This document shows positions 10,201-60,382 of a stretch of 64,000 bases of DNA, in pieces. Within the stretch, counting starts at the first letter, position 1. Every line of letters begins with the position of its first letter. The notes below the pieces were generated by a model. The model made no database searches and was not told where the DNA came from. It saw only the letters and a program-made list of their open reading frames with translations. This stretch comes from Branchiostoma floridae (lineage: Eukaryota > Chordata > Leptocardii > Amphioxiformes > Branchiostomatidae): assembly GCF_000003815.2 (NCBI RefSeq), contig NC_049980.1, forward strand, positions 1,887,960 to 1,951,959, written 5' to 3'. The position numbers and the translations under genes are program-made.

Positions 10201-10852
10201 AAATTGTCAAAAGACTAAATTTTCCCACGAAATCCTGTACACCTTTTGAAATTGTGTGATATACTTTGTAGTTCAATATCAACCATCTGGAATGTTGGAA
10301 TGGGTGCCTATCCACTGATTTGAACAGCATGTGGGGATAGTTTGAAACATTACATTGGAAACTCGGATGATTGGATGTCAGCGGAATTACATATATAAAA
10401 GGACACTGAAAACGCAGCTTTTAACGTATGGTGTTGTGTTTCATGAAGAATTAGTAGCATATGTGAAACACTCAACGTATAATGGCTGGATTTAAAGTTG
10501 AATTTAGATTTTGATGAAATTCCATAAAAAAAGAGCCATTAAAGCATAGACCTATATCTTTATTGTGGATAATATGCTAATTTGCTCATTTTTTCCGATA
10601 TCTTTGTGTACAGGCTGGCTCTTTGACATCACCGGAAACTACAACGTGTCGTTCCTGTTGTGCGGCGGGGTGATCGTCACTTCCGGCCTCTTCCGCCTCA
10701 CCGCGCACTGCATTATGGGAGACATGGGACTCTGCAGATCAACAGCTGAGAGGACCCAGCCTGTGGCACACGAAGCTGAGCAGAAAACTCTCTTAAAAAC
10801 GGCAGATTTCCCTCATGAACCAGTCGTCATAGAAGTTGAAACCACCGTATGA
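7268..10852 (+). CDS. SLC16-like monocarboxylate transporter 1 (4 exons)
   Basis: Predicted 12-TM major facilitator that moves small monocarboxylates or similar acids across a membrane; the substrate cannot be told. Coding exons: 7268-7490, 8379-8522, 9227-10033, 10614-10852, joined in phase 1 each time and giving 470 aa, normal for the family. The MCT signature DGGWGW is at residues 17-22, GRYFDRRRGLA lies in the TM5 region, and the TM8 pair is D291 and R295 (TDVIGR), matching the Asp/Arg pair of MCT1. The TM6-TM7 loop is short and acidic. The start is the first ATG in the exon that opens after TTCCAG at 7233, so a 5' UTR exon probably lies upstream; an ATG at 7196 lies inside that intron and was rejected. 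Exon 2 is 144 bp, as is the matching exon of transporter 2. Confidence 0.93.
9013..9162. repeat. Foldback element in transporter 1 intron 2
   Basis: Inverted ends: ACTGCGCATGCGCAGCG with TGCATTGTGGGTAATG on the left, and CCACAATGCATGCGCG on the right, enclosing GTCAAAGTTGAAAGCCCCT and its partner CTTCACCTTCGACCTATTA. It resembles the elements at 11091 and 23082, which also pair GCATGCGC-type ends with a GTGAAGGCCCCTGACTTGTA core. Confidence 0.6.
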
Positions 10853-22855: not shown

Positions 22856-25800
22856 TCAGAGTGTCGTTAGTCTTTCATAAACCGTTTCCAGTCTATCGTC
22901 ATCCCTTTCTGTGCTGTTCACGAGTTCTGCATTGAACTGAGGCTGTTCCTTCTTGTTGTTGCTAAGCATGACGGGAATCATGATGATCCCAGCTAAGACC
23001 ATGGAACTTCCGGCCGCCAGGAACGACATGTTGTAATTTCCGGTCAGGTCATGTAAAGCACCTAGTATCGACACACCCAATAAGCCCTTTCGTACATTGG
23101 ACTACGCACGCGCGGGCGACAGGAACATTGGGTAACGTGTCAAAGGTGAAGGCCCCTGACTTGTAAACGGTGCCGTCTGGATCAAAACAATGGTCTGTTT
23201 GCCTCTCAGCGGCCTTTACCTTTGACCTATCAGCCATAGTTCCTGTCGCCCGCGCATACGTAGTCTAATGTGCGAAAGGGCCTATAATCATAATGAAAAA
23301 GATGCGATGTGCACTAATGGCTCGAAGCAAACATTTTAAGCACGATCTATCATACAAGTATGGGCAATGCTTTAATCTGTAACTAACTAGTCGATATTTT
23401 TCTTTGTCCGCCGACGAAGATTTCCATGTCACAAACGCTAACGGTCAATGCCATCTGGCCATATCGCAGACCGGCGCACTTCAATATTGTATTTTATGTC
23501 TTACCTGGGCCGCGAAAACGTTCGATACAGGTGTTTAGGACTTTGTGATGACACACGGGTGTATCACACGGATGCTAAGTTGTATCATATGGGCTTCCTT
23601 GGAGTGAATGCCGAATGTGGCATGGTTTAAAATTCATATACATGTTGTTTTTTCCCTTTTGTCCTACCTACCGACCCAAGTTTCATTTCAACACGTAACG
23701 CTAGTTCACCTTTAACCGTAGGGTGCCCTATGTCCGTCGACAGATGGTGGTTTCAAAGTGCAATATTTTGAAAATAGTAAACAATTTGAAACTAATGTCC
23801 ATCGACTTCTCTGGATACCCTGTTTAGCATCACACGGATATAGGTTACCCCGCGGATAAAGGTATGCTAACGGAACGGACAAAGGTATATAACCGGTTAA
23901 CTGGAAACCCATCATTTTCCCCTCAGCCTCACCTGCCACAGGCGGTCCCGCCGAGGCACTGATCCCCTCCGCCATCATCAGCAGCCCGATGGCGCTGGCT
24001 AACCGTTCCGTCCCGACCAGATCGGCGGCCACGGCAAACGTCAAGGGTATGATGAGTCCGTTCACAAACCCGTACACTACACTGTGCACCAACATGGCGG
24101 TATACGTCACAGCCAACGGACACAGCAACGAGCAAACTCCCAGCATGCTCGCCGTCATGACGTACTTGTGCAGCTTGCCATATTTGGGAAATTCCGGAAC
24201 CATCCCTATGACAACCCGACCGATGATGTCTCCGACGGAAAGGATAGAGATGAGAAAGGCGGCTTGGTATTCGCCGGCTCCTAGATATACTGCGCGTGGA
24301 ACCAAGTGTACAAACGGTACGTAGTACCCGAAATATAGGAAAGCAAACGAGAAGAGATATAGTACAAACTGGCGTTTCCTTAGAAGGGTAAAACCTGACA
24401 TTTTAGAACGGCCGTATGCCTTTGGCAATGCTGTTGTGTAAGTGACGTCTTTTTCTGGTCTGTACACGTTATCCCCTGTGATAGTTTCTCCTTGATGGTA
24501 GGTTGATCGTACAGTAGTGTCGCCTGCAGGGTGTCTGATCGGCTTGAGCAGAGCGCCACAGACGCAGCAGTTCAGCGCTATTCCGCTAATCACAACCAGG
24601 GCGCCTCTCCAACCGTAGCAGTCGATCAGAAACTGGAAGAATGGCGGGAAGGCAAAGTTGCCAGTACACGCACCCAACCACGCCAAGGCGTTGGCAAGCG
24701 TACGTCGCTTATCGAAGTAACGCCCTACCATGGTCATCGTGGGTAGAAAGGCCAAGGAGAAGCCAAATCCTGAAACAAACGAAAAATTAACGTTAACTTG
24801 AAAGTAAAACATCTGATTTGGTAATCTACATAATCCATGATGAGGAAAATAAGTTACGATTTTCTTAAGTGAGAATGTGTATGCACATATATTTTGACAA
24901 GTTTTCAATACGAATCGTGCCACGGAGATATTTGAGATGATAGCATAAATTCAAGATCTTGAGAGATGAGTAGACAAATACAACTATGAACAAAAAAAAT
25001 TGTTAATCATATTACCAACCTATCCTACCCAACCTAAGCTTTTGTAAATTTTATGCAAATGACATGCACATTTTCATGATTCGTGCATGGTGATGTTCAT
25101 CATTGACTAACATACACATGTCAAGTATAAAATTCCCATCATTAATCATTGAGCGGTTTTGCAATTTTCGCATATATTATGCAAATCAGTTCCTCATTAG
25201 CATATTTGGCATCTGCTTATGTTCCATCCATCATAGTTTAAATTTGTTACATCTATTGAAGTCAAGTTATTGAAATACATGTAATGGAATTATACAATTT
25301 CCTTATTAATCATGCAAATAATGTCCTCACGTGCATTACATGTATATCATTATGAACATCTTTGCCTAAGCTACCTGCATGCCTAAAATGATGGCAATCC
25401 ATCGTTCCTCTCTGCAGTTATCCTCTTTGGAATGTCTTGACAAAAATACCCCTGCAGTTCCAAACTTAGATGTTTGGGGTCTGAAACTTGCCCCGCTTTG
25501 TCATGACGCTCAAAGCTATCTACCACCAAGATGTCAAGACCAAATCATACATTGAAAAAAACCCCGCTATGATAGATTATTGTCATTAATTATGCAAATA
25601 TAGTCCTATTTCACATAATCAGTATTTTTGTACAACATTGTCTAAGGTACATACATACCAAAAATATGAACATTCGTTGTTCTCTTCTTGACCTATTCAC
25701 TTCAGAACTTTTTGACAAAAATGCCCTGCTATCCGAAAAACAGTCGCTGGGGAGCCCAAACATATGTGACTTATTCCTGGGCTCAAGAGCTATCTAATAC

Positions 25801-28800
25801 TCAAAATTCGTGACCATAGCTTGTTCAGATCATGAGATAGCAAAACCAGAAGCTGTGCTGCAGTACCAATAGAAGCCGCTAGGGGGCCCAAAATCTAATC
25901 CTTTCCAGCTTTCATCACACCCCACTAACAAACCAAGTATGAAACCAATCCATCCAGCCGTTCTTGAGTTATCTTGTACACAGACAGACAGACAGACAGA
26001 CAAATGTTACTGAAAATATAACCTCCATGACATTTCATGGAGGTAAATATAACATTTAGTACGTACTGATTCATGGCGCTGCTGCAATCAATGTTGAATG
26101 TATGTATTTAGGCTAGGCAAACATTCCTGGAAATGTAATATTTGAAAACATCAATAAAATGTCTGGAAGCTAAAAAAATGATTTAACATTGAGGGCATAG
26201 CCATGTGTTGCCCTTCAGAGAACAAGGCAAGTTGCACGTGTTGCACTAACGATGCACGTGTTTTGGGTATACCAAGGACGTTATATATTGTATGTACTGA
26301 GGTATCTAGGTCAGGTGAGGAATACGTGCTGTTCAAAAATAAGAGAAAAATTTTACCATAAAAGATTAACCTACATGGTATCTACACGTAAGCACACAAT
26401 TACGACTTTCTTAAGTGAGAATTTGTATCCACATATATTTTGACAAGTTTTCAATACGAATCGTGCCTATGTTATAAAACACGGAGATATTCGGTATGAT
26501 AGCATGAATTCATTAAGTGCACGTTTTCAAGATCTTGAGAGATGAGTGGACAAATACAACTATAAACAATTTTTTGGTAATCATATTACCAACCTATCCG
26601 TTCTGCCTAAATTCTAAGGCTACACTAACTGATAGGCGGCTGAGCAGCCTCATCTGTGTATAAGTCATATAAATGAATACACAGAAAAAACAAATGATAT
26701 ACAAACAATATGTAACGGATTTACATACTTGTGACAAGTAAGTGAGTGAGTGAGTGAGTGAGTGAGTGAGTGAGTGAGTGAGTGAGTGAGTGAGTGAGTG
26801 AGTGAGTGAGTGAGTAAATGTACAACTGCTTGGCACCGATGTAAGCATAAAAGAACATTGAAGCTTTTACCTAGAATTATAGAACTGATATATTATGATG
26901 ACTGCATGAAAATACACCGCCACTGTATGCTCTCTTGTATTTGCATAGTGTCTTCATTATGTCCAACCTTTGTTTATTGACTAGCTCCTCTGGTAAATCA
27001 TTTACTCTGTCTGTTTGAAACGCTGCCTCATCATTACGAAGACAGTGTCAAAAACGCATCACATGATAATCTTTATTCTTAAGTCATGACATTTGTATTC
27101 TATAATGCCAGCGCTCTACTACAGTATTCAAATTCTTTTTAAACATTCAGCATGTCAATTACATATTACAATATAAGATTTGCTTTATCAAAATCCCACT
27201 CTGGTATTGAAAATCACTTATGACCATACTAAAAGAGCTTTAAATGTGTATTGTCCATATGGTACGGATGTGTCGTGATCAACTATTTGAATTCATGTAT
27301 TTGGAACACGGACAAGGAAGCTTTAAATGTGTATTGGTCTATATGGTACGGATGTGGCGTGATCTACTGTTCGAATTTATGTATCTGTAACAAGGAAAAC
27401 GAAATTGTCTGACCAACACTAGGTGAAAAAATGTGATAGCATCCCACTATCCCGTTATTACACTAGTAAGAGTACAAGAATTGTGTCTATTGGCAAAAAC
27501 ATGTGATAGAACCCCTCTATCACATTGCTTCACTAGTAAAAGTACAAAGATTGTCTACTGGTGAAATAATGTGATATCGTTGTGTCAACCATTATCACGT
27601 GTAAAAGTTGTTAACACGGTTTTCGCCTTAAACACTCTTTGGAACTAAAATGATATGATAGATTGGCAGTGCTCAGTAAAGTAGTAGCTGTGGATTGACC
27701 CGGCCGGAAACCAGGATGCTGTTCAGATAGAATGTTATTTCGGTGGAGATATTCCAGGAACTGGCTTTAATTTATGTATCTGGAACACGGACAAGGAAAT
27801 TTTTAATGTGTATTGGTCTATATGGTACGGATGTGGCGAGATCAACTGAATTTATGTATCTGTAAGAAGGAAAACGAAATTGTCTGACCAACACTAGGTG
27901 AAAAAAATGATAGCACTCCACTATCCCATTATTTCAATAGTAAGAGTACAAGAATTGTGTCTATTTGTAAAAAAAAATGTGATAGAACCCCTCTATCACA
28001 TTACTTCACTTGTAAAAGTACAAAAATTGTCTACTGGTGAAATAATGTGATATCATTGTGTCAACCATAATCACGCGTAAAAGCTGTTAACACGCGTACG
28101 GTTTTCGACTTAAACACTCTTTTGAACTAAAATGATATGATAGATTGGCAGTGCTCAGTAAAGTAGTAGCTGTGGATTGACTCGGCCGGAAACCAGACTG
28201 CTGTTCAGATAGAATGTTATGTCGGTGGAGATATTCCAGGAACTGGCTTTAATTTATGTATCTGGAACACGGAAAAGGAAATTGTCTGAGCAGGACTAGG
28301 TTTCACATTATCTGGCAGGATCGCGTTATCGAAAGGTTACAAAGAAGCAAGTGGTGCAAAATGGCACAAAATGTCTTGCTAACTGCCATGATAATGATGA
28401 CGCTACTGTGTACATCATGCATATCTGATTCCTGCCCGAATTGTACTTAGCTTTTACCTAGAACTATAGACCTGATACGCTATGATGACTGCATGAACAT
28501 ACACCGCCACTGTATGCTCTCTTGTATTTGCATAGTGTCTTTATTATGTCCAACCTTTGTTTATTGACTAGCTCCTCTGGTAAATCATTTACTCTGTCTG
28601 TTTGAAACGCTGCCTCATCATTCCGAAGACAGTGTCATAAACGCAGCACATGATAATCTTAATTCATAAGTCATGAAATTTGTATTCTATAATGCCAGCG
28701 CTCTACTACAGTATACAGATTCTTTTTAAACATTCAGCGTGTCAATTACATATTACAATATACGATTTGCTTTATCAAAATCCCAGTCTGGTATTGATAA

Positions 28801-31800
28801 TCACTTATGACCATACTAAAAGAGCTTTAAATGTGTATTGACCATATGATATGGTACGGCTGTGGCGTGATCTACTGTTTTTATGAATCTGTAACGAGGA
28901 AAACGAAATTGTCTGACCAACACTAGGTGAAAAAAATGATAGCACTCCACTATCCCATTATTTCACTAGTAAGAGTACAAGGATTGTGTCTATTGGTAAA
29001 AACGTGTGATAGAACCCCTCTATCACATTACTTCACTTGTAAAAGTACAAAAATTGTCTACTGGTGAAATAATGTGATATCGTTGTGTCAACCATTATCA
29101 CGTGTAAAAGTTGTTATCACGGTTTTCGCCTTAAACACTCTTCTGAACTAAAATGATATGATGGATTGGCAGTGCTCAGTAAAGTAGTAGCTGTGGATTG
29201 ACCCGACCGGAAACCAGGATGCTGTTCAGATAGAATGTTATGTCGGTGGAGATATTCCAGGAACTGGCTTTAATTTATGTATCTGGAACAAGGAAAAGAA
29301 AATTGTCTGAGCAGGACTAGGTTTCACATTAGGTGGCAGGATCGCGTTATCGAAAGGTTACAAAGAAGCAAGTGGTGCAAAATGGCACCAAATGTCTCGC
29401 TAACTGCCATGATAATGATGACGCTACTGTGTACATCATGCATATCTGATTCCTGCCCGAATTGTACTTAGCTTTTACCTAGAATTATAGACCTGATACG
29501 CTATGATGACTGCATGAACATACACCGCCACTGTATGCTCTCTTGTATTTGCATAGTATCTTCATTATGTCCAACCTTTGTTTATTTACTAGCTCCTCTG
29601 GTAAATCATTTACTCTGTCTGTTTGAAACGCTGCCTCATCATTACGAAGGCAGTGTCATAAACGCAGCACATGATAATCTTAATACATAAGTCAGGAAAT
29701 TTGTATTCAATAATGCAGCGCTCTACTACAATATACAAGTTCTTTTTAAACATTCAGCGTGTCAATTACATATTACAATACAAGGGTTACTGTATCAAAA
29801 TCACACTCTGGTATTGATAATCACTTATGACTATACTAAAAGAGCTTTAAAAGTGTATTGACCATATGGTATGATGTGTCGTCATCAACTATTTGAATTC
29901 ATGTATCTGGAACACGGACAAGGAAGCTTTAAATGTGTATTGGTCTATATGGTACGGATGTGGCGTGATCTACTGTTTGAATTCATGTATTTGGAACGCG
30001 GACAAGGAAGCTTTAAATGTGTATTGTCCATATGGTACGTGTTGAGATATGTTATGTATATGGTCCATATGGCACGTGTTATGTTGGTGGAGATATTCCA
30101 GGAACTGGCTTTAATTTATGTATCTGGAACACGGACAAGGAAGTTTTCAATGTGTATTGGTCTATATGGTACGGATGTGGCGAGATCAACTGTTTGAATT
30201 TATGTATCTGTAAGAAGGAAAACGAAATTGTCTGACCAAGACTAGGTGAAAAAAATGTGATAGCATCCCACTATCCCGTTATTACACTAGTAAGAGTACA
30301 AGAATTGTGTCTATTTGTAAAAAAAATGTGATAGAACCCCTCTATCACATTACTTCACTAGTAAAAGTACAAAGATTTTCTACTGGTGAAATAATGTGAT
30401 ATCATTGTGTCAACCATAATCACGCGTAAAAGTTGTTATCACGGTTTTCGCCTTAAACACTCTTTTGAACTAAAATGATATGATGGATTGGCAGTGCTCA
30501 GTAAAGTAGTAGCTGTGGATTGACCCGGCCGGAAACCAGGATGTTGTTCAGATAGAATGTTATGTCGGTGGAGATATTCCAGGAACTGGCTTTAATTTAT
30601 GTATCTGGAACAAGAAAAAGGAAATTGTCTGAGCAGGACTAGGTTTTACATTATCTGGCAGGATCGCGTTATCGAAAGGTTACAAAGAAGCAAGTGGTGC
30701 AAAATGGCACCAAACGTCTTGCTAACTGCCATATTGACTACGCTACTGTGTACATCATGCATATCTGATTCATGCCCGAATTGTCGGGTTATCTACGAGA
30801 AGTGTCATCCGGTAAAGGGTACTGGATCTGGACGTGAAGAGCTTTGTGTCACCTGTGACCCTTCTGCGGAACATCTCGTCAGAGATACCATTCCACGCTG
30901 CACGCTTCTTCAGAAAGCGACAACTTTGTTTCTCCGGAATTTCCGTCTTGGCTACCTGTCCTCGGCCGACATCAACCACCTTAAGCATCTGACGCATCTT
31001 TACATACAACCAGGTAAGTTTGCGATTTTGTGTGAGACATGATGAGATACTGGATGAAATCACAATACAGGAGAGATTCTGATTAACATTGATACAAAGA
31101 ATGTCATGATATATCTGGAAACGCTTCTGTTTTATTTTTTCAAACGTAGGAAAATACAAAGTGGTACAGTCTCAAGTTATGCTCCTATCATAGTGGTAGC
31201 ACTCGCTATAGATAATATGTACAATATGCTATTAAGATACGTAAAAGAAGAACATCGTTTTGATAAACACATGTGATGTCAGTTATTTACGAAGTTGAAG
31301 ATTTCCGTATCTTATAGTTATACTTTGACTTCACTGTGACTTACAAAATCGAAAGTAATCTCGATCCAGTTTAGCTCACTGAGCAGCTATTCTTCCAATT
31401 ACTCTACCTCTTTTCAACAAGCACAAACGCTCCATCCTTAGAATTGCAATCCTTTCCAGTAGCGTGTATGTCGGATGAGCAACAATGGTCGGGATTCGAA
31501 TTCCCGAATCCTTTGTCCAGAGGCACGACCGCTAACCACGGAACTACACACGCTGCCATGTTATTGAGTTATTGAGGCAGGGCGCTATTGTGATATAAAA
31601 CTAGTTGTTTATTAATTTGTTTTTCTTATTTATTTGTTTAGGAAACCTCGGGCTCCTTGACAATCAGACGTTCGAAGGGTTTGAGTGCAAGCTGTACGAA
31701 CTGTTTCTGTCTCATAACAACCTTCCGTATCTAGGAAAGGGGTGGCTTGTCGAAGTTCTTCGTTTTCTCAACTTAGATCATAACGAAATAGCTTATATAG

Positions 31801-34800
31801 AAGAGGGGGCATTTGGTGTCAGTGACCAATGCCTCGCGACGCCAGCTCTATTTCTGCCGTGGAACAAGCTCGTGGAAATCAAGCCAGGATACTTCAGACA
31901 TCTTTGTAAGCTGAGGGTCTTGGATCTACGACATAACCAAATTTCCACCATCGACAAAGGTACCAACGACTTCAATTTATTGTGCTAGTTCTGCATACAA
32001 GCTTTATTAGCTGTGCACTTGGTGTGTATTTTCTTGTGATCGTTGTCAAGGTCAGAGGATTATATCCAAACCGAAACCGAAAGAATCACTCTGTTTAGAG
32101 AAGCCACAAAGACTTAATTATAAGTTATCCCAACTTCCCCACGTTGACAGACGAACAGAAAGCCACTTTTCTCTTGAAAACGCAGAGCCCACAAATTTTA
32201 GAAAAGGTGGGGCTTTTCGTATCCCTCTACATCCAAAAAAGAAGTCAAACCCAACCTGTTTAGAAATAGCCAACACTAGTATTAGAGTATAGTATTGTTC
32301 ATGACTGTCCATTGTCACTATGTTTATACCATGTACTTGCAATTAGCCCTCGGGCACGAACTTGCAAATAAACTTCTTCTATATCTGCCAATAACCTAAA
32401 ACACATTTGCACACACTTTCAATGGTCTTTATTCAAAGCTTATATAATTCGGGGTCCATGAAAAATGGAGGTATAGTTTTGAGTGTGTCTGTGTGTGTGT
32501 CTGTGTGTGTGTTTGTGTATGTGTGTGTTTGTGTTTGTGTTTCCGGATATTTGTGGACAACATAACTTGAGAACCTCTTAATGGACTACGATGATATTTG
32601 GTATGTGGGTAGGGGTTGGGAAGACAAAGGTCAAGGTCAACTTTGGGCCCCCTGGTGTGTGACCTTGGTACTGCAGCAGAACTTCAATTTTCTTAATCTT
32701 TTTACCTGGACATGCTATGGTCTTGATTTCTTGGTGGCAGATAGCTTTTTATGTAAGGAAGAAGTGGTGTATGTTTGGCCCCCCTAGTTTTAATTGTGTT
32801 TTCCCCAAATGTCAAAATCTATTCATACGTGGCAGCTAGGTGGTAAATATTAGTATGTACATTATGATTCCTTATAACGTATATGTATGCACAACGATAT
32901 AAGTTTGACGATTTCTTTTCATTTCAGGCAGTTTCGATGAACCGTATCGCCTGAAAGTACTCCGCCTTGCCAGTAACAACCTGACAGCAGTACGAAGAGC
33001 TTGGTTCCCAGCCATAAAGGACAGACGACTACTCACTACCTTAGGCTTGGCTAAGAATAAAATTCAGTACATCGAACCCGGGGCATTTATGCAGCTTGTT
33101 CTCTTAGAGACCCTAGATCTTTCTGATAATCTCATCACAAGTCTGCAGGAAGATCAGTTCCTTCTTGGTGATCTTAGCTTTGGTATATGGGATCTAAACC
33201 CCTTAGTGTATGGTAACCCCATCCGTTGCACATGCACTCTCCGTTGGTTATTTCAATTGGACAAATCAGAAGATTTGTTACTTTCTGATTTTCTAGCTAT
33301 TCGCACATCACACTTTAAGTCGTTCACTTGTTTTTATCCAGAGGATTTCGAGGGCACAGTGTTCAATGACCTTTCGAGAGACAGGGTGTTGTCGATGCAG
33401 TGTCCCGCTCCAAAAATTACAATAACTGAACAAAAGAAAGGTCAAACCTTCCAATGCGAAATATGTTGGGAAGAAGGACCTCCTGGCATGCAATGGACTT
33501 TGCCAAATAAGACAACCCTCCTGATCACAAACGTACAATTTGAAAAAGAGACGCATATCAACCTTGGTGATATGAACACTTCAACGTCATTCTACGTGAA
33601 TTTCCAGGGTTTCAACTGCTGCACTTCCACATCATCTGCGGCCAACCATTCCAACTACTACGCCTGTAACTTTAGGGGAAAGACAATTTCTACCTTGAAA
33701 ATCAATGAAAGTCTTATGCAGCAATGGTACGGTACAAATATTCATTGTACATCGCTGTTTGATTCAGGCGGTGCAAACGTCACGGCTCAATATATAATGT
33801 CTGGTACAAAGAGTTGGACCCAGTTGTCCCCCTCGTTAAGCAGCGTCACTACGGCCTCTGCTTCAAGTGCACCAACAGGAAATGGTGAAGGCGAACAGCA
33901 AATATTCATCCTGCTAGAATCAAATCCGAACGATAGTTTCCCTATTAATCTGTGGGATCTACTCATCACCATCTTGCTGACGTCAGCAATCGTTGCGCTG
34001 TCCTGCTTTATCCTGCATTCGCTACGAGGGGCCACATTTACCAATAAGCAACAGAACCACAATAACAGTGGTATAGGAAATCAGCGAACCATACACCAGT
34101 CCTCTCAGCAGATCTCTGAGACAGTAGACGACCCGCAACATCACACGTACGAAACCATACCGGACGAACAGATTGGGGATGATGTTATCACACCTTACGG
34201 TCAAGCTAAACTGTCGGGTGCCTACGGAATAGACTCGCCCCAAACTGCAACAAATTGTAATTACTAGCTTGTCCTTGCACAAAATGAAAGAATGTGAACT
34301 GATTATGTTACAAGTCAGAAAAGTGAATGCGCTTAGCTTATTAGACAAAGATATGATATGATAATGTTGTGAAATTAGAATCCTACAACGTAGTTGGAGA
34401 AAAATAACTGCTCGAAACCGAGTACAGAAACAGCCTCAAGGCCCACTGAAAACACAAAGTCAGCAGCAGATGTAGTGGTAAATTTTAGACAGCAATTTTG
34501 TGTGATTTGTGTGGTGTTGTGATATTGTCTAGAAAGTAACTTACTTTTGTTCACATTCTTTCCTATTGGCAATAATGTACATGTACAATGTATGTATACA
34601 CGATGTTTTAAAGAATAAAGCAATAATACAATGATTCTTGATACCTGTCTAAACGTGACATTTTTCTCGGATCGTTTCTCGGATTGTTTAGGTCTTCCTT
34701 GCTACCACAAGCTAATTTATAACAACAACACTTAAAGCCATACTGTACTCCAGAGGAGAGTGTTCCAGCTCTGCTAGTAATATTTTTCTGAATCCCAAAA

Positions 34801-40829: not shown

Positions 40830-41477
40830 AGCTTATCTTTGTACTTCTTATTGAAAACTGAAAAGCCTATTTTCTGATTGGCTGACAGCTGGTTAGTGGC
40901 GACGACCACAGGAACTAAGAGTAACGGTTGAGAAAGCAGGGTACATCCAGACAGGCGGTTTCGGCGTTGGATGTCCGTGCGTAGAAAAATGCAGGGAGTC
41001 TACCATGCAGGAACCATCTAGGCTACTTTACTATAAGAAGAACGTTTCAATATAAAAGACACTAATGTCTGCTGATGTAGGTCAAGGAGCTTTTCTCTGC
41101 CATGCTGGTGTCACCTCTCTGAGGATAAACTAAACTGAACTGAATGTATTTATTGATATGTATCATGTGAGAAACAACGATCCATCCACTGTCATAGTTT
41201 CCGGTTCAATCTCTGCATTAACGAGATTTATGGATATCATCAGAAATGTAAACAGCACGATTTAGGAAAGCTTTATGAATTGTCGTTGCTATAATGACGT
41301 TCTTGTTACCATCGTACCATGTAATTGCCCGTGGTTCCATTATATGATATTTGCATCATGGGGAGGATTTTTCATTTTACGTGGAAATAAAATGCCAACG
41401 CCCCTGCGGGATTCTTCTACCTCGTTTTGTTTCGAAAAGACAAGTGACAGGTTAAAGCTGGAATCCGTAGGAGTCGA

Positions 41478-41985
41478 AATGGTGGTGTAAGTAGGAGCTA
41501 ATTCTACAGTAAATGGTGGTGTAAGTAGGAGCTACTTCTACAGTAAATGGTGGTGTAAGTAGGAGCTACTTCTACAGTAAATGGTGGTGTAAGTAGGAGC
41601 TACTTCTACAGTAAATGGTGGTGTAAGTAGGAGCTACTTCTACAGTAAATGGTGGTGTAAGTAGGAGCTACTTCTACAGTAAAAGGTGGTGTAAGTAGGA
41701 GCTACTTCTACAGTAAATGGTGGTGTAACTAGGAGCTAGCTCTACATTAAATGGTGGTGTAACTAGGAGCTAGCTCTACAGTAAATGGTGGTGTAAGTAG
41801 GTGCTACCTCTACAGTAAATGGTGGAGTAAGTGGGAGCTGCTCTACATTAAATGGCGGTGTAACTAGGAGCTAGCTCTACATTAAATGGCGGTGTAACTA
41901 GGAGCTAGCTCTACATTAAATGGTGGTGTAACTAGGAGCTAGCTCTACATTAAATGGTGGTGTAAGTAGGAGCTACCTCTACTGA
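41478..41985. repeat. 34-bp minisatellite, about 15 units
   Basis: The unit is GGTGGTGTAAGTAGGAGCTA plus CTTCTACAGTAAAT. Left-hand units carry CTACTTCTACAGT; right-hand units carry CTAGCTCTACATT, creating the 10-bp palindrome GAGCTAGCTC. It is intergenic, between transporter 2 and ENDOU. Confidence 0.95.
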
Positions 41986-49575: not shown

Positions 49576-52500
49576 CTATATATATATAACGATATTCTAT
49601 CTATACCCAGGCTAGACATGAGACACAAGTGAACATGAAAATGTGCAGAAAATGTGTATTTGTATGTGTAAAAAACTTTCATAACATTACTTCACTGCAC
49701 AACCGCTCTTGCTTGGCTCTATCACATGCATGGGAGAGAATGGAAGGCCTTACGAATTACTCAACACATTTTGTAACCTTCCTTGTTATCTTAGGAGAAG
49801 ATGCAAACCAGCAAAAGAGGTATACTTAAGAAGGAACAACTAGTAAAATGTACATCTAATAAGCAATATCCAGATTTTCGGTACAATTATGAGCTTTCCC
49901 AACCCTGTACATATATCTGCTTGCAATTGAATCCCTGTAGCGTCCTGTGTTGGTCGCTGTGGTGAACAATACAACAACGCCAACCGCTGCCACTGCAACG
50001 ATGTGTGCGGCCAGTATGGGAACTGCTGTAGTGACTACCAGGCTATCTGTGTTCTACAAGGTAAGAACTGTGCCGTTTTTTTTTCTTTCTATTTTGCTTT
50101 TGGATAGACGAGGACAATGTAGACTGCACTCAAGTTTTGTAACTTATATTAACAGTGCCACTTACACGGTACAGACATTAGGTAAAGGTAGTCTTTTATC
50201 TCCCCGGGCGAAGTCAGATACCCATTTTTTGGCGACGCCTCAGGGGCGGAGGCATTCTACAGTATTACGATTGCTTTGAAAATATTCCAAAAATTGCACG
50301 AATGCATTCCCTAGGGAATTTATTTTGAGGTAGCCTTTGCCTGTTTGGTCTTTTATCGGAACAGAAACGACCTTTGTTTCTTGATATCTAAAGTCACATG
50401 TATCGTTTCGGGTGATTTGCTTCTTTCAGGACAAAAAAAAATTGTCATAATCAATGTTTTAAGTACCTTTTTTGTTTCTGGCAAATGAGAGTTATGTGTT
50501 AAAATTACAACTCTCTATCCCTCTTTTGGTGTTATTTGAGAGAAATAGGAACGCTATATTAAAGATTTAATGTTTCAAATTCTTTTTTTTCCACCTGTGA
50601 ACACAATCATATTTTGAATTTACTAGATCTAATTTGAAACAATGGTTATTTTCAAGATGTTTGTACAAAGCAGAAAAGGCCATGACTGTACACATTGAAA
50701 TTAAGAAACTACTCATTTGCAAGACAACCAATCCACACAATTATCTATACCTTTATTTCATCAACGTACACATCAAACATACTTTTATTACATCTGAAGA
50801 CACAAATAGATTCACTATATAAAGCTTGCAGAACAGGACATTTTTTTTGCTTTATAACTTTGGATGTTTGTCTATAACGCGAATCTTGGTACTACATTCA
50901 AGGAGAAACTCTCTGTTTTGTATTTCTGTCAATCTTGTAACAAGTTGTATGCATGGCTATTAGTACCACAGAACCAGTCCTGGAACTATAGACTGATTGT
51001 CAAGATTACATATACATTGGTTCCCGTTTTGCTGAGGTGATAGACTAGTAGGTTGTATTTTAAAGCTGTTGTTGCTGGTCATCTGACTGCCGTCCAAGTT
51101 CAGGTCTTTCTTGTGACTGTTGTCGATACTGTCATGTAGAGCTGTAAGAAACAATGTAGAACAGGTTAGTTATAGCTTAACACATGTTGGGAAACCCGAT
51201 CTCATACTCCCATGAAAACGCTGATAATATGTCAAAATATATGAATCCCTGTGGGTTCTTTAAGATGGTTTAGTTGTCAAATGTCTTCTTTCACATGACA
51301 CCCAAGCTAATTAATTAACCAGAACCCCCGCATCCAATTATAGGTTCGGTCTGGTTTTCAATACCCCCAATATTGGTGACTGGTCTCCCACTTGAGCCGT
51401 AGGGTCTGGTTGAGTCATCCTTCTATCATCATTCTTATGCTGTAACTCCTTGTGAGAAAAAAAGACAGATGTTGAATCACTCCAAACTTTGGTTTTATAG
51501 TAGTTTTATGCATTTGCATTCATTTGTTGTCAGGGCATGATTGGAATTAATATTGTGTGACTTCAGTAAAAAGACGTGCCTGCAGCTGTTTGATTTTTTT
51601 CAGGCTGCGTTTGTGGAACAGTAGGGGAGGATTCTCTGTGGATTTTGAAGACAGATGATCGTGCGTGGGATAACAGAGAACAAAGGATCTTTCTTTCCCC
51701 CTTCCTCTTGAAAGGAAGACATTTCCCGTCCCTATAGCTACAGAAAACGTTTTTTCTATCCTCTTGAGTTAGACTTGACACAAAGAAATTTGCTGACCTG
51801 ATAGCTACAGAGAACAAAGGTTTTTTCTATCCTCTTAAGTTTGACTTGACACAAAGAAATTTGCTGCACCGATAGCTACAGAGAACAAAGGTTTTTTCTA
51901 TCCTCTTGAGTTTGACATGACACAAAGACATTTGCTGATCCGACAGCTACAGAGAACAAAGGTTTTTTCTATCCTCTTGAGTTTGACATGACACAAAGAC
52001 ATTTCCCGTACCGATAGCTACAGAGAACAAAGGGTTTTTTTCTATCCTCTTAAGTTTGACTGGACACAAAGACATTTCCCGTCCCGATAGCTACAGAGAA
52101 CAAAGGTTTTTTCTATCCTCTTGAGTTTGACTGGACACAAAGAAATGTGCTGCACCGGTACCAATAGCTACAGAGAACAAAGGTTTTTTTTTTCTATCCT
52201 CTTAAGTTTGACTTGACACAAAGAAATTCGCTGCACCGATAGCTACAGAGAACAAAGGTTTTTTCTATCCTCTTGAGTTTGACATGACACAAAGACATTT
52301 CCCGTACCGATAGCTACAGAGAACAAAGGTTTTTTCTATCCTCTTAAGTTTGACTTAACACAAAGAAATTTGCTGCACCGATAGCTACAGAGAACAAAGG
52401 GTTTTTTTCTATCCTCTTAAGTTTGACTGGACACAAAGAAATTGGCTGCACCGATAGGTACAGAGAACAAAGGTTTTTCCTATCCTCTTAAGTTTGACTT

Positions 52501-55500
52501 GACACAAAGACATTTCCCGTCCCGACAGCTACAGAGAACAAAGGTTTTTTCTATCCTCTTAAGTTTGACTTGACACAAAGACATTTCCCGTCCCGATAGC
52601 TACAGAGAACAAAGGTTTTTCTATCCTCTTAATTTTGACTTGACACAAAGAAATTTGCTGACCCGATAGCTACAGAGAACAAAGGTTTTTTCTATCCTCT
52701 TGAATTTGACATGACACAAAGACATTTTCTGACCCGATAGCTACAGAGAACAAAGGTTTTTTTTTCTATCCCAATGAGTTTGATTTGACAGAAAGACATT
52801 TCGTATAAGAGCTGCGGGAAACTAACTACGATGCGCCCAGGCTAGTTGAGCTGTTTAGAAATATCCATATAATAAAATACTTCGGACGGCCACAGAAAAC
52901 ACATGATCACTCACCTTTTATATATTTTCTCCATCGGACCTCCGCACGCCTGCCTCTTTGCCTTTCTGCTACCTACTGTACTTCTGAATAAGGAAAGATA
53001 CAGTGGATAACAGAGGGGCATTTTCCAACACGTCCACTCATCCCCACTCCAGTGTCTTCAATGATGGTCAAAATGATGAGATCTCCAGAATGGTCAGCTG
53101 ATATCCTGAGAATGTGCTCGATTGGTCGACCGCCGATACATCACGTGGAGGCCCGCCTCTTGTAATTAATCTTTTTTTTGTCTCTTGTTCCGCCCCGTTG
53201 GAGGGTCTCCGCCTCCTGTTGTGGGATAGTCTCCGACTCCTGGGGGCGGGGCTGTCATAAATCTGCAGCTGTCTAACTCCAGATGGAACGACTAATGTGT
53301 TTAGCATTGGCTCTGACGTTCTTCAAGGGGACCCTCTTGACATGTTTTTATTCAGGTGTTCTATCTCAGACACTGAAGGCTTTACCGTACGCAGTCGTCA
53401 TAGCCGTCACTACCCTGTCGAAGTCCTTGCTGACATTGACTTTGCAGACGACATAACCCTTCTCGAAAACTCTATCCACTTCGCACAAATTCTGCTAAAC
53501 AGTATAAGTATAGGAGGCATGTCAGGCCATCGGCCTTAATTCAAAACCGTTCAAAACAAACTACATGCATCTGAGCCCTTCATCTCCGCGGCAACAAATT
53601 GCATTTGACAGGTCTGAAATTGAGCGTGTAGTCGACTGCAAGAATCTAGTTGTTTTTTCTGGTAAAGAGATAGATGCATGTGTAGAGTAAGGGTTGTCTA
53701 AGCTTGTAGTTCTTTCATTTTCCTACAAAAAATATCACACTGTGAAAAAATCTGGAAGCACCTATCAGGAAGCAAACAGAAACCTGTTAAAAACTACTCT
53801 ACTTTACAATTCTAAGTCATTGGCCTTGGGTGCAGTCATTAGTAAGAAACGGCACCTACACAACAGTGCTACAAATAGTGTACAACGTATAATGAAAACG
53901 GTGAAACATCCCAGGTTTACCGCTGATAAACGGCAGCCTCCATGCTCGTTAGTTTACCTATATGTCACTGACACACTTCGCCACTTGCCACTATGTCGTT
54001 TATGATCCGGCACGTTCTCAGGAACAGCTCAATCTCAGGACCGGTGTTTATTATCTCAACTCCCTTGTTTGGATCTCTTGACATTGGCATGCTATGGTCT
54101 TGATTGATTTCTTTGTGGCAAATAGCTTGTTTCATTATAGTTTGGATGCCGCCATTACAGGGGTACCTAAGTATTCATACGATCCTTACGAAAAACATAC
54201 GATCCACTACTAAGAAAAATTCGATCCTTAAGCTAATTAATGGCACAACCCGCCATACGTGCAAATGCGTGCTGTCTACGTGCAAAAACGTGGGCAATCT
54301 TTTGGGATACGTAACGTAAGTGGTCAGTACCGCCTCCGTACCAAATCGTATGGAATCCAACGGATTTGGGAGCACGCATACACGCCGTAGCACTTTACGT
54401 GCATGCAAAACTTTCTCTGCTATTCGGGCTGCGGATTGACTCCCGTACGAGCCAGTACGGGTGACGCGCGTGCCCTGTACAGCCAATGCGAGTGAGTAAG
54501 GACACCGTACGTACACAGCACGTGTAAGTACGGCCTGCATATGATAACGTGGCAATCGCACAGACATCGTACGTACAACTCACCAATGGCGCAACGAACG
54601 ATGCACGCAACCGCTCACGGCACGTGCGAGTGACGTATGTTGAGACGTGCACCCTCCCTGCTCTTGCCATTCCTTCCTCACGTTTTCAGAAATACGTGGT
54701 GGACGGGGCCTCAAAAAAACGTACGGACAAATAACACGTACGGCGGGTTGTGCCCTTAGCTTTACGGAATTAATACGATCCTTACTAATCTGTCGCCACC
54801 ACACCGAGCCGTGCTCTGTTGCAGATTAATATCCTTTCCCCAGCTAGCCGAAAGGTATAAAATACACCGATATGTCACCCAATAAGTTAGCACTCGTGCA
54901 GGTGGAGGTTTTAGGGCTTAGCAGGGTGGGATAATCCCTATGTCGTCAGAAGAAATGCAAGTTCCGGGGCCACCATGTTGAATTAGTAAGGATCCTATGA
55001 ATTCCGTAATGATCGTATGATTTCCGTAAGGATCGTATGAGTTCCATAAGGATCGTATGTTTCTTAGTAGTGAATCGTATGAATTCCGTAAGGATCGTTT
55101 GTTTCTCGTAAGGATCTTATGAATACTTATGCGCCCCTGCATTAGATCCCCGCCCTGTTCTGATTTGTTTTAATGTGTAAGGAACCGCTAATTCCCATGC
55201 TATCAATGGTGAAGAGCACTAATTGCAGTGTTATCATTGATGACAACCATTTATTGCCGTGATATCAATGGTGAACATGATAATTGCTATGCTATCATTG
55301 GCGGTCGTTCCCCCAGAAATATACACGTAAACTTCACTCGATGGATGTATGCTCTGTTTATAAAATCAAAGGATTTAGCCATTACATCCTACCCTCAACA
55401 AGAACCAAAAAGTTCCTATACAACGTCAACTAGATTTTGTTCTGAATTCGTGATCAGGGAAGTACACAATTTCTACTAACCAAGCCTCAGTTCAATGCCT

Positions 55501-58500: not shown

Positions 58501-60382
58501 AGAACCGGTCCCCAATATGTTGAAAATTGTTAATCAGCCCTCCTTCTTGTAATACGCCAGCGCTCATGGAAGGCCGCGAAGGAGGCTAGCGGATGGGCAT
58601 GTTCGTTTCGTACATGGTCGTCGCCATCTGAAACTATAGCCGCCATATCGCTGACCGTTTTCTGAAAGTCTTGATCATGAGGCCGACAAGAAGCAAAAAA
58701 AAAAGTATTTCAATTACACCTGCAGTGTCATGATAGATGGTAAAAAAAATCATCGAAAAAAAGATAATGGACCCAAAAGGGTTCGAAGCCAAACCAAAAA
58801 TGATTATTTCCTAATCAACTACAAAACATCACGATGTGGACCTGCTAATATAAGCAAAAAGGCGACGACCGTTTCATAAGGTGACGGCCGTTTCATAAGG
58901 CGACGACCGTTTCAAAAGGCGACGGCCGTTTCAAAAGGCGACGACCGTTTCATAAGGCGAAGACCGATTACGACATTGAAATAAGCGACGCTGCCATATT
59001 GGAGACAACACCGTGATGTTTCTTGGCAAGCTCCCACTCTGGGTCAGCTTTATATATTGTACATCCTGTCTGTAGTATAGTGGTATATGCTGCATGTTTA
59101 GAGAGTTCTAACTGTTTTTGAAGTTCCCTTTCAGTATGAAAAGATGACAACGACCGACGGAAACACGCGACGCCGACTGAAGCCCACGTCATGGTCCTTT
59201 TACTGGTTAATTTATTAAGCTACTCTTGGCTCTTCCCCATGTAAGTTTCTATAGGAGCACAGTATGTCAAGCAAAGAAGGACTGCTGTACTCACGGAGAA
59301 CGATGGAAGCTTGATGTATTGAAATCTGTCGTATTTCCTCTTACTAAGCTCCTATTTATATATGTAACGTTACATGTTCTGCGGACGTCAGTCGTTTCGA
59401 CATCACCACAACAAAGGTTTACGATATGTTAGGGACTTTTGAGATATTTTAATGTTATAACGTTATATCTCTGTGCCTTTAGGGATCGTGCCCTACAATG
59501 AGGCTGACTTCAAGGCCCGTCTGAACGAAATCTGGTTCGGCCGTTACTCTCGCCAGGACGGCAAACTAGATACTTCTGGGTTTGAGCACGTGTTTGTGGG
59601 TGAAGTGAAGAATGGCGTGGTGTCAGGCATGCACAGCTGGGTACGGTTCTACATGGCCGAGAAAAGCGGAGACTTTGATTATTCTGGCTACGTCTATAAA
59701 AATCAAGTAAGTTTATTTCTCCCTATTTACTTATTACAAATTATTATGTTTCCCGTAGGAAAAACATATTGTTTTGCTGGCGTGTTCTTTCATCTTCTTC
59801 TGACATTTTGGCGACATTTCAGGGCCGAGCCGAGTTTTTTTCTCTCTCTCTCTTTTGGCGACCGCTCAGGACCGAGCCTAGTTTCCTCCTTTTTTTGGCG
59901 ATGCCTCATAGGCTAGCATATTTCTAGCTCTCTTTTTGGCGACGCCTTAGTGGCGAGGCTAACGGTATAGTGTTGTGTGCGAGTAGCTGGTCAAAGGGCA
60001 AATTACTAGGAGGAAAACATCCCACGCTTCCTCGAAAACGTTTCTTTCCTAGTTATAACTACTAGTATGTTTTAACTGGTAGGTTAAGTACTTCCAGCTG
60101 TTTCCTCTAACGTGTTGAGAAAATCTTGACAAAATTGTACTTTAATTTCTTCTTCCCCAGCCTGGCACCATCGGCGTGCAGTTCCGCTGGGGTAGTGTGT
60201 GGAAGAACCTGGGCGGCTTCTTCCTGGGTACCAGCCCGGAGTTTGATGTCGCCATCTACACCCTCTGTTTCCTGACCCGTCCGAACGGTCCTTGTCAGTT
60301 CACCATGGCGGGAAGCCAGATGCGGATCATCACCTACAGTTGGTTGGACCGCGGGCGCTACCTAGCTACAGCATATCCCTGA
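47760..60382 (+). CDS. ENDOU: Secreted EndoU endoribonuclease with two somatomedin B domains
   Basis: Uridylate-specific endoribonuclease of the XendoU/PP11 family, which cleaves single-stranded RNA at U and leaves cyclic-phosphate ends. Exons: 47760-47844, 49941-50060, 56242-56370, 56766-56946, 57797-57999, 59483-59706, 60161-60382, giving 387 aa (human ENDOU is about 410). Signal peptide about 1-23; SMB1 at 30-66 and SMB2 at 70-107, each with the canonical eight Cys and encoded by its own phase 1-1 exon; a Thr/Pro/Ser linker; then the EndoU domain at about 125-387. H275 (GFEHVFVGE), H290 (SGMHSW) and K329 (VWKNLG) align with the catalytic His-His-Lys, and E274 and E280 with the conserved acidic pair. 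The loop before K329 is about 4 residues shorter than in human. Predicted active and secreted. Intron 2 is 6.2 kb and packed with repeats. Confidence 0.95.
48209..48538. repeat. Palindromic MITE family G, copy 2 (uninterrupted)
   Basis: A 330-bp foldback with ends CATCCTCCTACGCAGGGACA and the inverse CCCTGCGTAGGAGGATG, and inner arms CTTATAAATATTAATAAGGT and ACCTTATTAATATTTATAAG (approximate). A poly-G run lies in the centre. In ENDOU intron 1. Confidence 0.9.
48609..49400. repeat. Repeat family X, copy 3, with inserted MITE B
   Basis: It starts GGCCATAGCAAGTACATTTT and resumes after the inserted element at 48944 with CATTTTATGGATGAC. The interior includes CCGCAGACTCCAAAT and CAATCAAGGCTACCA, matching copy 1 and copy 2. 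In ENDOU intron 1. Confidence 0.7.
48632..48943. repeat. Palindromic MITE family B, copy 2
   Basis: The ends are TAATCTACAAGCAGATCCTA and its inverse TAGGATCTGCTTGGAGATTA. It is flanked by the exact 9-bp repeat CATTTTATG (48623-48631 and 48944-48952). The empty site is preserved in repeat X at about 905, confirming insertion. Confidence 0.9.
49486..49588. repeat. (TA)n microsatellite
   Basis: About 100 bp of TA repeat with one TCTCTC interruption, in ENDOU intron 1 about 350 bp before exon 2. Confidence 0.95.
51672..52805. repeat. 70-71-bp minisatellite, about 15 units
   Basis: The unit is GATAGCTACAGAGAACAAAG, a T run, CTATCCTCTTGAGTTTGAC, then TGACACAAAGA and a variable end. Two end types alternate irregularly: AATTTGCTGCACC and CATTTCCCGTCCC. 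The T run varies from 5 to 9. GATAG at the unit start can pair with CTATC. In ENDOU intron 2. Confidence 0.95.
53281..54005 (+). pseudogene. Decayed LINE reverse-transcriptase fragment
   Basis: VLQGDPL and IDFADDITLL are the RT motifs before and around the catalytic Asp pair. Further on, NLLKTTLLYNSKSLALG and VKHPRFTADKRQPP look like the RT C-terminal region. Frameshifts and stops at about 53540-53690 break the frame. It lies in ENDOU intron 2 on the same strand. Confidence 0.7.
54158..55139. repeat. Large palindromic element E
   Basis: The left arm is CAGGGGTACCTAAGTATTCA plus TACGATCCTTACG; the right arm is CGTAAGGATCTTATGAATAC plus TTATGCGCCCCTG. The right arm repeats a TACGATCCTTACGGAA-like unit about six times (54990-55120). 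A possible 5-bp duplication CATTA flanks it (54153-54157, 55140-55144). It contains family C copy 3. Confidence 0.75.
54238..54759. repeat. Palindromic MITE family C, copy 3 (nested)
   Basis: The ends are TGGCACAACCCGCCATACG and CGTACGGCGGGTTGTGCCCT. It is inserted into element E and larger (522 bp) than the copies at 20360 and 36780. Internal CACGTGCGAG and GTACGTACA motifs are abundant. Confidence 0.8.
55775..55900 (-). mobile_element. tRNA-derived SINE
   Basis: The minus strand has A box TGGCGTAACTGGTAGCGC and B box GAGTTCGATCC at tRNA spacing, then GGAAAGGCACTGTACACAAC and TTCCTCACTTCACCCAG, the same body as at 35386. The anticodon stem has mismatches, so it is a SINE head rather than a tRNA gene. 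Confidence 0.7.
55982..56202. repeat. Palindromic MITE family D, copy 3
   Basis: The ends are AACGCTAGTTCGTCTTTATC and its inverse GGATAAAGGTAAACTGGCGT. It stops about 40 bp before the acceptor of the SMB2 exon (56242). Confidence 0.85.
56378..56455. repeat. Half copy of MITE family D
   Basis: TAGCTCACTTCACCTTTATC plus CGCGGGGTAACCTATATCCG begins about 8 bp after the donor of the SMB2 exon. Only one arm is present. Confidence 0.75.
56959..57087. repeat. Palindromic MITE family B, copy 3
   Basis: The ends are TAATCTCCAAGCAGATCCTA and its inverse GGATCTGCTTGGAGATTA. It starts 12 bp inside intron 4 of ENDOU, directly after the donor at 56947. The flanks show only an approximate 8-9-bp repeat. 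Confidence 0.85.
57110..57314. repeat. Palindromic element, family F, short copy
   Basis: GTGCATTTCAAGTCCGTATG is on the left and ACACGCTCGTGTGACTGCAC on the right, with an inner inverted pair around CATACGCATCTCAATCG. In ENDOU intron 4. Confidence 0.65.
58000..59482. other. ENDOU intron 5
   Basis: No internal gene. The frame from 57732 runs through exon 5 and past its donor only because no stop occurs early. Contains the 19-bp repeat at 58860-58970 and an AT-rich stretch. Confidence 0.5.
58860..58970. repeat. 19-bp tandem repeat, about 6 units
   Basis: The unit is GGCGACGACCGTTTCATAA, with GGCGACGGCCGTTTCAAAA variants, in a head-to-tail run. Confidence 0.9.

Follow-up and report, generated by a model that had tools for sequence, protein, structure and literature searches.

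An array of three head-to-tail units, the third of which runs on into an intact LRR gene, was identified at positions 26862..30784 of the window (the whole stretch of 64,000 nucleotides that was analysed, C2:1887960-1951959). We consider it probable that this is a partial tandem duplication which was expanded by unequal exchange, and whose truncated units are without function.

The array lies where the preliminary description had placed it. Comparison of the window with itself gave long unit-to-unit BLAST matches at E 0.0, which excludes similarity by chance. The unit heads begin at 26862 (A), 28449 (B) and 29470 (C), all on the plus strand. Unit A (26862-28448, 1587 bp) is composed of a head, 84-bp repeats, a partial body (A0), body A, a truncated exon 1 and an ACTT filler; unit B (28449-29469) measures 1021 bp, and unit C (29470-30784) is here only the repeat part of the copy that continues into the intact gene. 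The three are approximately 91-96% similar, with substitutions per aligned site of 5.1-7.5% in the head, 3.8-4.4% in the proximal 370 bp and 2.4-7.4% in the signal-peptide codons. The units are unequal: unit A contains an internal tandem duplication (27290..28283, plus strand, 482-bp period, 2.1 copies), which gives it its extra partial copy A0, and of the 84-bp repeats C has about 2.4 copies, A two and B none. Directly to the left of the array is an unstranded AGTG microsatellite (26737..26815), to which the C12 stretch described below also matches (query 45-110). Outside the array, the sole match of region 26500-31000 to the window (blastn, E<=1e-4) was that of the left flank (26526-26599) to 24950-25025. 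These positions fall within a further local direct duplication (24854-25025 and 26400-26599; 77% over some 200 bp, 1546 bp apart), next to which a minus-strand gene resembling MFS transporters is located.

Based upon splice sites and reading frame, the intact LRR gene is predicted to encode a product of 655 aa from three exons on the plus strand: 30704..31013, 31642..31959 (which also matches the paralog) and 32928..34267. The third carries the last LRRs, the extracellular region, a hydrophobic segment taken as transmembrane by eye from the translation, and the tail. Three stretches of the product matched LRR_8 (Pfam E 5.7e-29), no Ig family was found among its Pfam matches at E<=0.001, and its best solved relatives include LRRTM, LRRC15, LRIG1 and TLR3. 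The duplication breakpoint (30784/30785) is located within predicted exon 1, whose donor (CAG/GTAAGT) is at 31013/31014; the C12 paralog has CCAG/GTGAG at the corresponding place. The copied part had been described as the signal-peptide exon, a description which does not hold, since CPNC (at 30784) is internal to an exon that runs to 31013. For the same reason, the truncated copies are without the exon-1 splice donor.

The A/B and B/C junctions are identical (CCGAATTGT-ACTT-AGCTTTT), ACTT being a 4-nt filler. Two broken copies with their own upstream DNA had been reported to end after CPNC, and this was borne out: truncated ORF A (28361..28450, plus strand, ATG at 28361) and truncated ORF B (29382..29471, plus strand, ATG at 29382) are both of 29 aa and both terminate in TGT ACT TAG, i.e. 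one codon beyond CPNC. In both copies, the filler and the opening bases of the following head together encode Thr-stop, the TAG of ORF A being built from the filler and the first bases of unit B. The special weight originally attached to these features does not hold. Because the filler is the same at both junctions, one breakpoint copied once is simpler than two independent breaks, and independent truncations at one codon were rejected. The most satisfactory reading of the common end is a single event that appears twice, having been copied by homologous exchange. In addition, a 3-nt in-frame insertion is common to A and B and is absent from C and from the C12 paralog. Single-strand folding at the breakpoints was unremarkable (z of 0.75, -0.26 and -1.06).

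The direction of change was established by comparison with a paralog. Searches of the genome (513431437 bases in 431 contigs) gave nine matches to 30595-31013 and five to 26700-27240. Outside the array locus only C12:11178721-11179753 matched both head and gene start, although absence of a match does not show rarity; later exon-1 sequence had two further short matches, of 75 bp on C19 and 124 bp on C11. The closest relative found was the C12 gene starting at position 7444 of L009, which matches over the exons and the 5' flank, with protein identities of 68%, 81% and 71% in the exon 1, 2 and 3 blocks and splice sites at corresponding places. This paralog is unbroken over the left unit edge, where the flank outside the units (26826..26861, plus strand) aligns with it across the breakpoint, and over CPNC (CPNCRVVSEKC versus CPNCRVIYEKC). 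In contrast to the array, it has one head, one start, a single 5' flank and no truncated copies, and the distance from the equivalent of the left breakpoint to the ATG is 548 bp, versus 3878 bp in the window. No second copy of its 5' kilobase was found nearby, except that 95 bp match the next LRR gene at 73%. Because the paralog runs through both breakpoints, the ancestral left edge is the one preserved in unit A, and the ancestral gene is the one that follows from unit C. At their ends, units A and B are 93.6% and 91.7% identical to unit C, and 77.6% and 76.6% identical to the C12 paralog. At least four related LRR receptor genes are found in tandem within the 16 kb of C12:11172001-11188000 (L009-L010), a stretch containing one 100-base gap (10734-10833) which is not in the 5' flank, and the gene in the window has the look of one of these copied to C2. 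In the closest C12 copy, a stop codon occurs shortly before the aligned tail ends.

Each unit also contains part of an interspersed repeat, located at 30250..30498 (plus strand) in unit C with equivalents in A0, A and B, and with subrepeats of about 70 bp which in the window hold a near-palindrome of 10-12 pairs. A 1785-base query gave at least 130 matches in the genome (40 of 265 candidates scored). Among the matches listed, counted by eye, six were in the array and two at the C12 paralog; the remaining ones corresponded to query 1242-1504 (window 30241-30503) or to query 6-80 (the unit B equivalent). Tandem Repeats Finder detected arrays of about 70 bp in three of four genomic examples (L005, L007 and L008, not L006), and in L007 the subrepeat is present in both orientations. 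A block of about 50 bp, single in the C12 paralog, flanks the insert on both sides in the array, and no match to the element was found in the 16-kb C12 region, gap included, at E up to 0.01. From these features the insert looks like a truncated non-autonomous element. The whole unit was also considered as a dispersed transposon carrying a gene start, and this was rejected as the head and start region matched only the array and the C12 paralog; the inner 250 bp are interspersed, whereas for head and start (query 1-190) no other matches were found.

Variants are distributed among the units as a mosaic. Alignment of the four body copies gave 16 sites that are gap-free and split two versus two, leaving out all others: seven unite A0 with C against A with B, six A0 with B against A with C, and three A0 with A against B with C. 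They fall in six runs (P 0.0053 versus 20000 shuffles, in a test that treats sites as exchangeable). Such a pattern suggests that the units have exchanged sequence, and their divergence is therefore no clean clock. For scale only, with a rate of 5.89e-9 per base per generation (PMC12862219), 5% divergence would correspond to about 4 million generations, akin to the allelic depth there (pi 0.0397). Private changes number 13, 6 and 15 in the head and 10, 13 and 16 in body and exon for A, B and C, respectively, according to which no unit is specially conserved in both parts.

We infer the following order of events and mechanism of exchange. One non-homologous join would have tandemly duplicated the 5' flank (head, insert and proximal region) together with the first 27-28 codons of the LRR gene. 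The break would have fallen within exon 1 past CPNC, leaving behind the 4-nt filler that helps to form the stop codon. Later homologous unequal exchange between the copies could then have produced a second truncated unit with an identical junction, and additional rounds of exchange could account for the repeats of 482 bp and 84 bp as well as for the mosaic.

It is rather unlikely, yet deserves consideration, that the array is in part an artefact of assembly, in which each haplotype has one truncated unit and merging placed the allelic units A and B one after the other. For the 2020 B. floridae assembly, Sanger reads of roughly tenfold depth were used, and the haplotypes were first assembled separately and then resolved with HaploMerger2 (PMC7269912), and an earlier assembly of this species had artefactual duplicates of allelic genes (PMC2632668). 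Furthermore, A and B diverge by 2.4-5.1%, near the heterozygosity of 3.2-4.2% of sequenced amphioxus (PMC12862219). Against this, the window contains no N, the A-B divergence is not distinct from that of B and C (3.8-7.4%), and the junction requires at least one truncated unit in any case. The 482-bp duplication in A agrees with a real array and with a merging artefact alike. Since unit divergence is near heterozygosity, a count of three units is not safe; there may be only two, and the minimum is a single truncated unit ahead of the gene. Individual lancelets differ in gene content, and the genes concerned are enriched for immunity functions (PMC12373286), which makes real variation in copy number plausible as well.

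The truncated units are most likely by-products with no selected role, and the observations can be accounted for without giving them a function. The ATG, the hydrophobic core and the longer in-frame start had been noted as kept in the truncated copies, and they are indeed present: the upstream in-frame ATG occurs in all three units, and the best 11-residue Kyte-Doolittle means of the N-terminal core are 2.38 (A), 2.23 (B) and 2.49 (C). Such retention is no sign of use, since under random substitution (substitutions alone, indels left aside) the ATG and open frame of the 87-nt ORF survive six changes in 0.68 of trials, and the longer ORF of 189 nt survives 5 to 12 changes in 0.71 to 0.46 of trials. 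That A and B yield secreted microproteins of 29 aa, consisting of a signal peptide and a few mature residues, is thus extremely improbable despite the intact ORFs and hydrophobic cores. About nine residues would be left after signal cleavage, both codon changes between A and B in the signal peptide are non-synonymous, and no poly(A) signal (A(A/T)TAAA) was found on the plus strand of any unit. Relative to the C12 paralog, non-synonymous differences number 5.5 (A), 7.5 (B) and 7 (C) and Ka/Ks over 27 codons is 0.158, 0.232 and 0.404, respectively, versus 0.628 for exon 1 and 0.577 for exon 3 of the intact gene; the low values and the in-frame indel are compatible with constraint on A and B, although 27 codons cannot decide the matter. 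Another proposal is that the intact gene gains a start site or a regulatory input from every copy of the 5' flank. Head and proximal region occur in every unit and may contain regulatory DNA, because both are recognisable upstream of the C12 paralog too, and donor-like GTRAG(T/A) sites are present in each unit (three in A, one in B, two in C). Such a promoter array nevertheless appears quite unlikely from the sequence. TATAWAW was likewise not found on the plus strand of any unit (for both motifs, weak evidence), transcripts initiating in the truncated units would be without an exon-1 donor in their own unit, and with 38 ATGs between the start of unit C and the ATG of the gene, unspliced read-through messages would be laden with upstream starts. 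A specially conserved block was also sought, and the longest invariant runs were not significant by permutation (P 0.089 for 432 body columns and 0.081 for 374 head columns, above 0.05 though low). Very unlikely, too, is a reading in which the 5' units serve a possible immune-type receptor as an expression dial of variable copy number, unequal exchange adding or removing whole promoter-plus-signal-peptide units between haplotypes and upstream units acting as decoy or additional promoters. Rfam and tRNA scans of the window gave no matches (the tRNA scan in the bacterial code), and a bacterial promoter scan was uninformative, as its model does not apply to an animal.

Partial tandem gene duplication expanded by unequal crossing-over is a known general class, and as a partial tandem duplication with exchange the array is an already known kind of event. 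It shares with this class the head-to-tail copies derived from the adjacent intact gene, the breakpoint inside the gene, the non-homologous filler junction, the identical second junction and the mosaic of variants. It differs in that the copied part is a 5' flank together with a piece of exon 1, located upstream of the intact gene and including a fragment of an interspersed repeat. A literature search on partial duplication and on first exons, promoters or signal peptides yielded nothing of use, and novelty is not claimed. The amphioxus VCBP locus is similar in its lancelet copy-number variation, gene fragments and haplotype-specific repeats, and one modelled transcript there has an insert-specific start and signal peptide (PMC2632668). 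In contrast, the products of the VCBP genes carry V-type and chitin-binding domains rather than LRRs, and an array of 5' fragments is not described for that locus in the sections of PMC2632668 drawn on here.

The array offers a polarised example, from a very highly heterozygous lineage, of how a partial gene duplication can begin with a filler junction and subsequently be enlarged and shuffled by exchange. It would provide a natural promoter-dosage series if its units were transcribed or variable in copy number. As matters stand, it is mostly a caution that ORFs which look conserved in young tandem copies are to be expected from chance alone.

Three other features of the window were recorded. 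A minisatellite of 34-bp units is located at 41477-41982 (14.9 copies, 94% matches), and a large one of approximately 71-bp units at 51673-52802 (14.7 copies in 51745-52801). An exon of a XendoU-type endoribonuclease (Pfam E 9.2e-30) was identified at 59461-59916.
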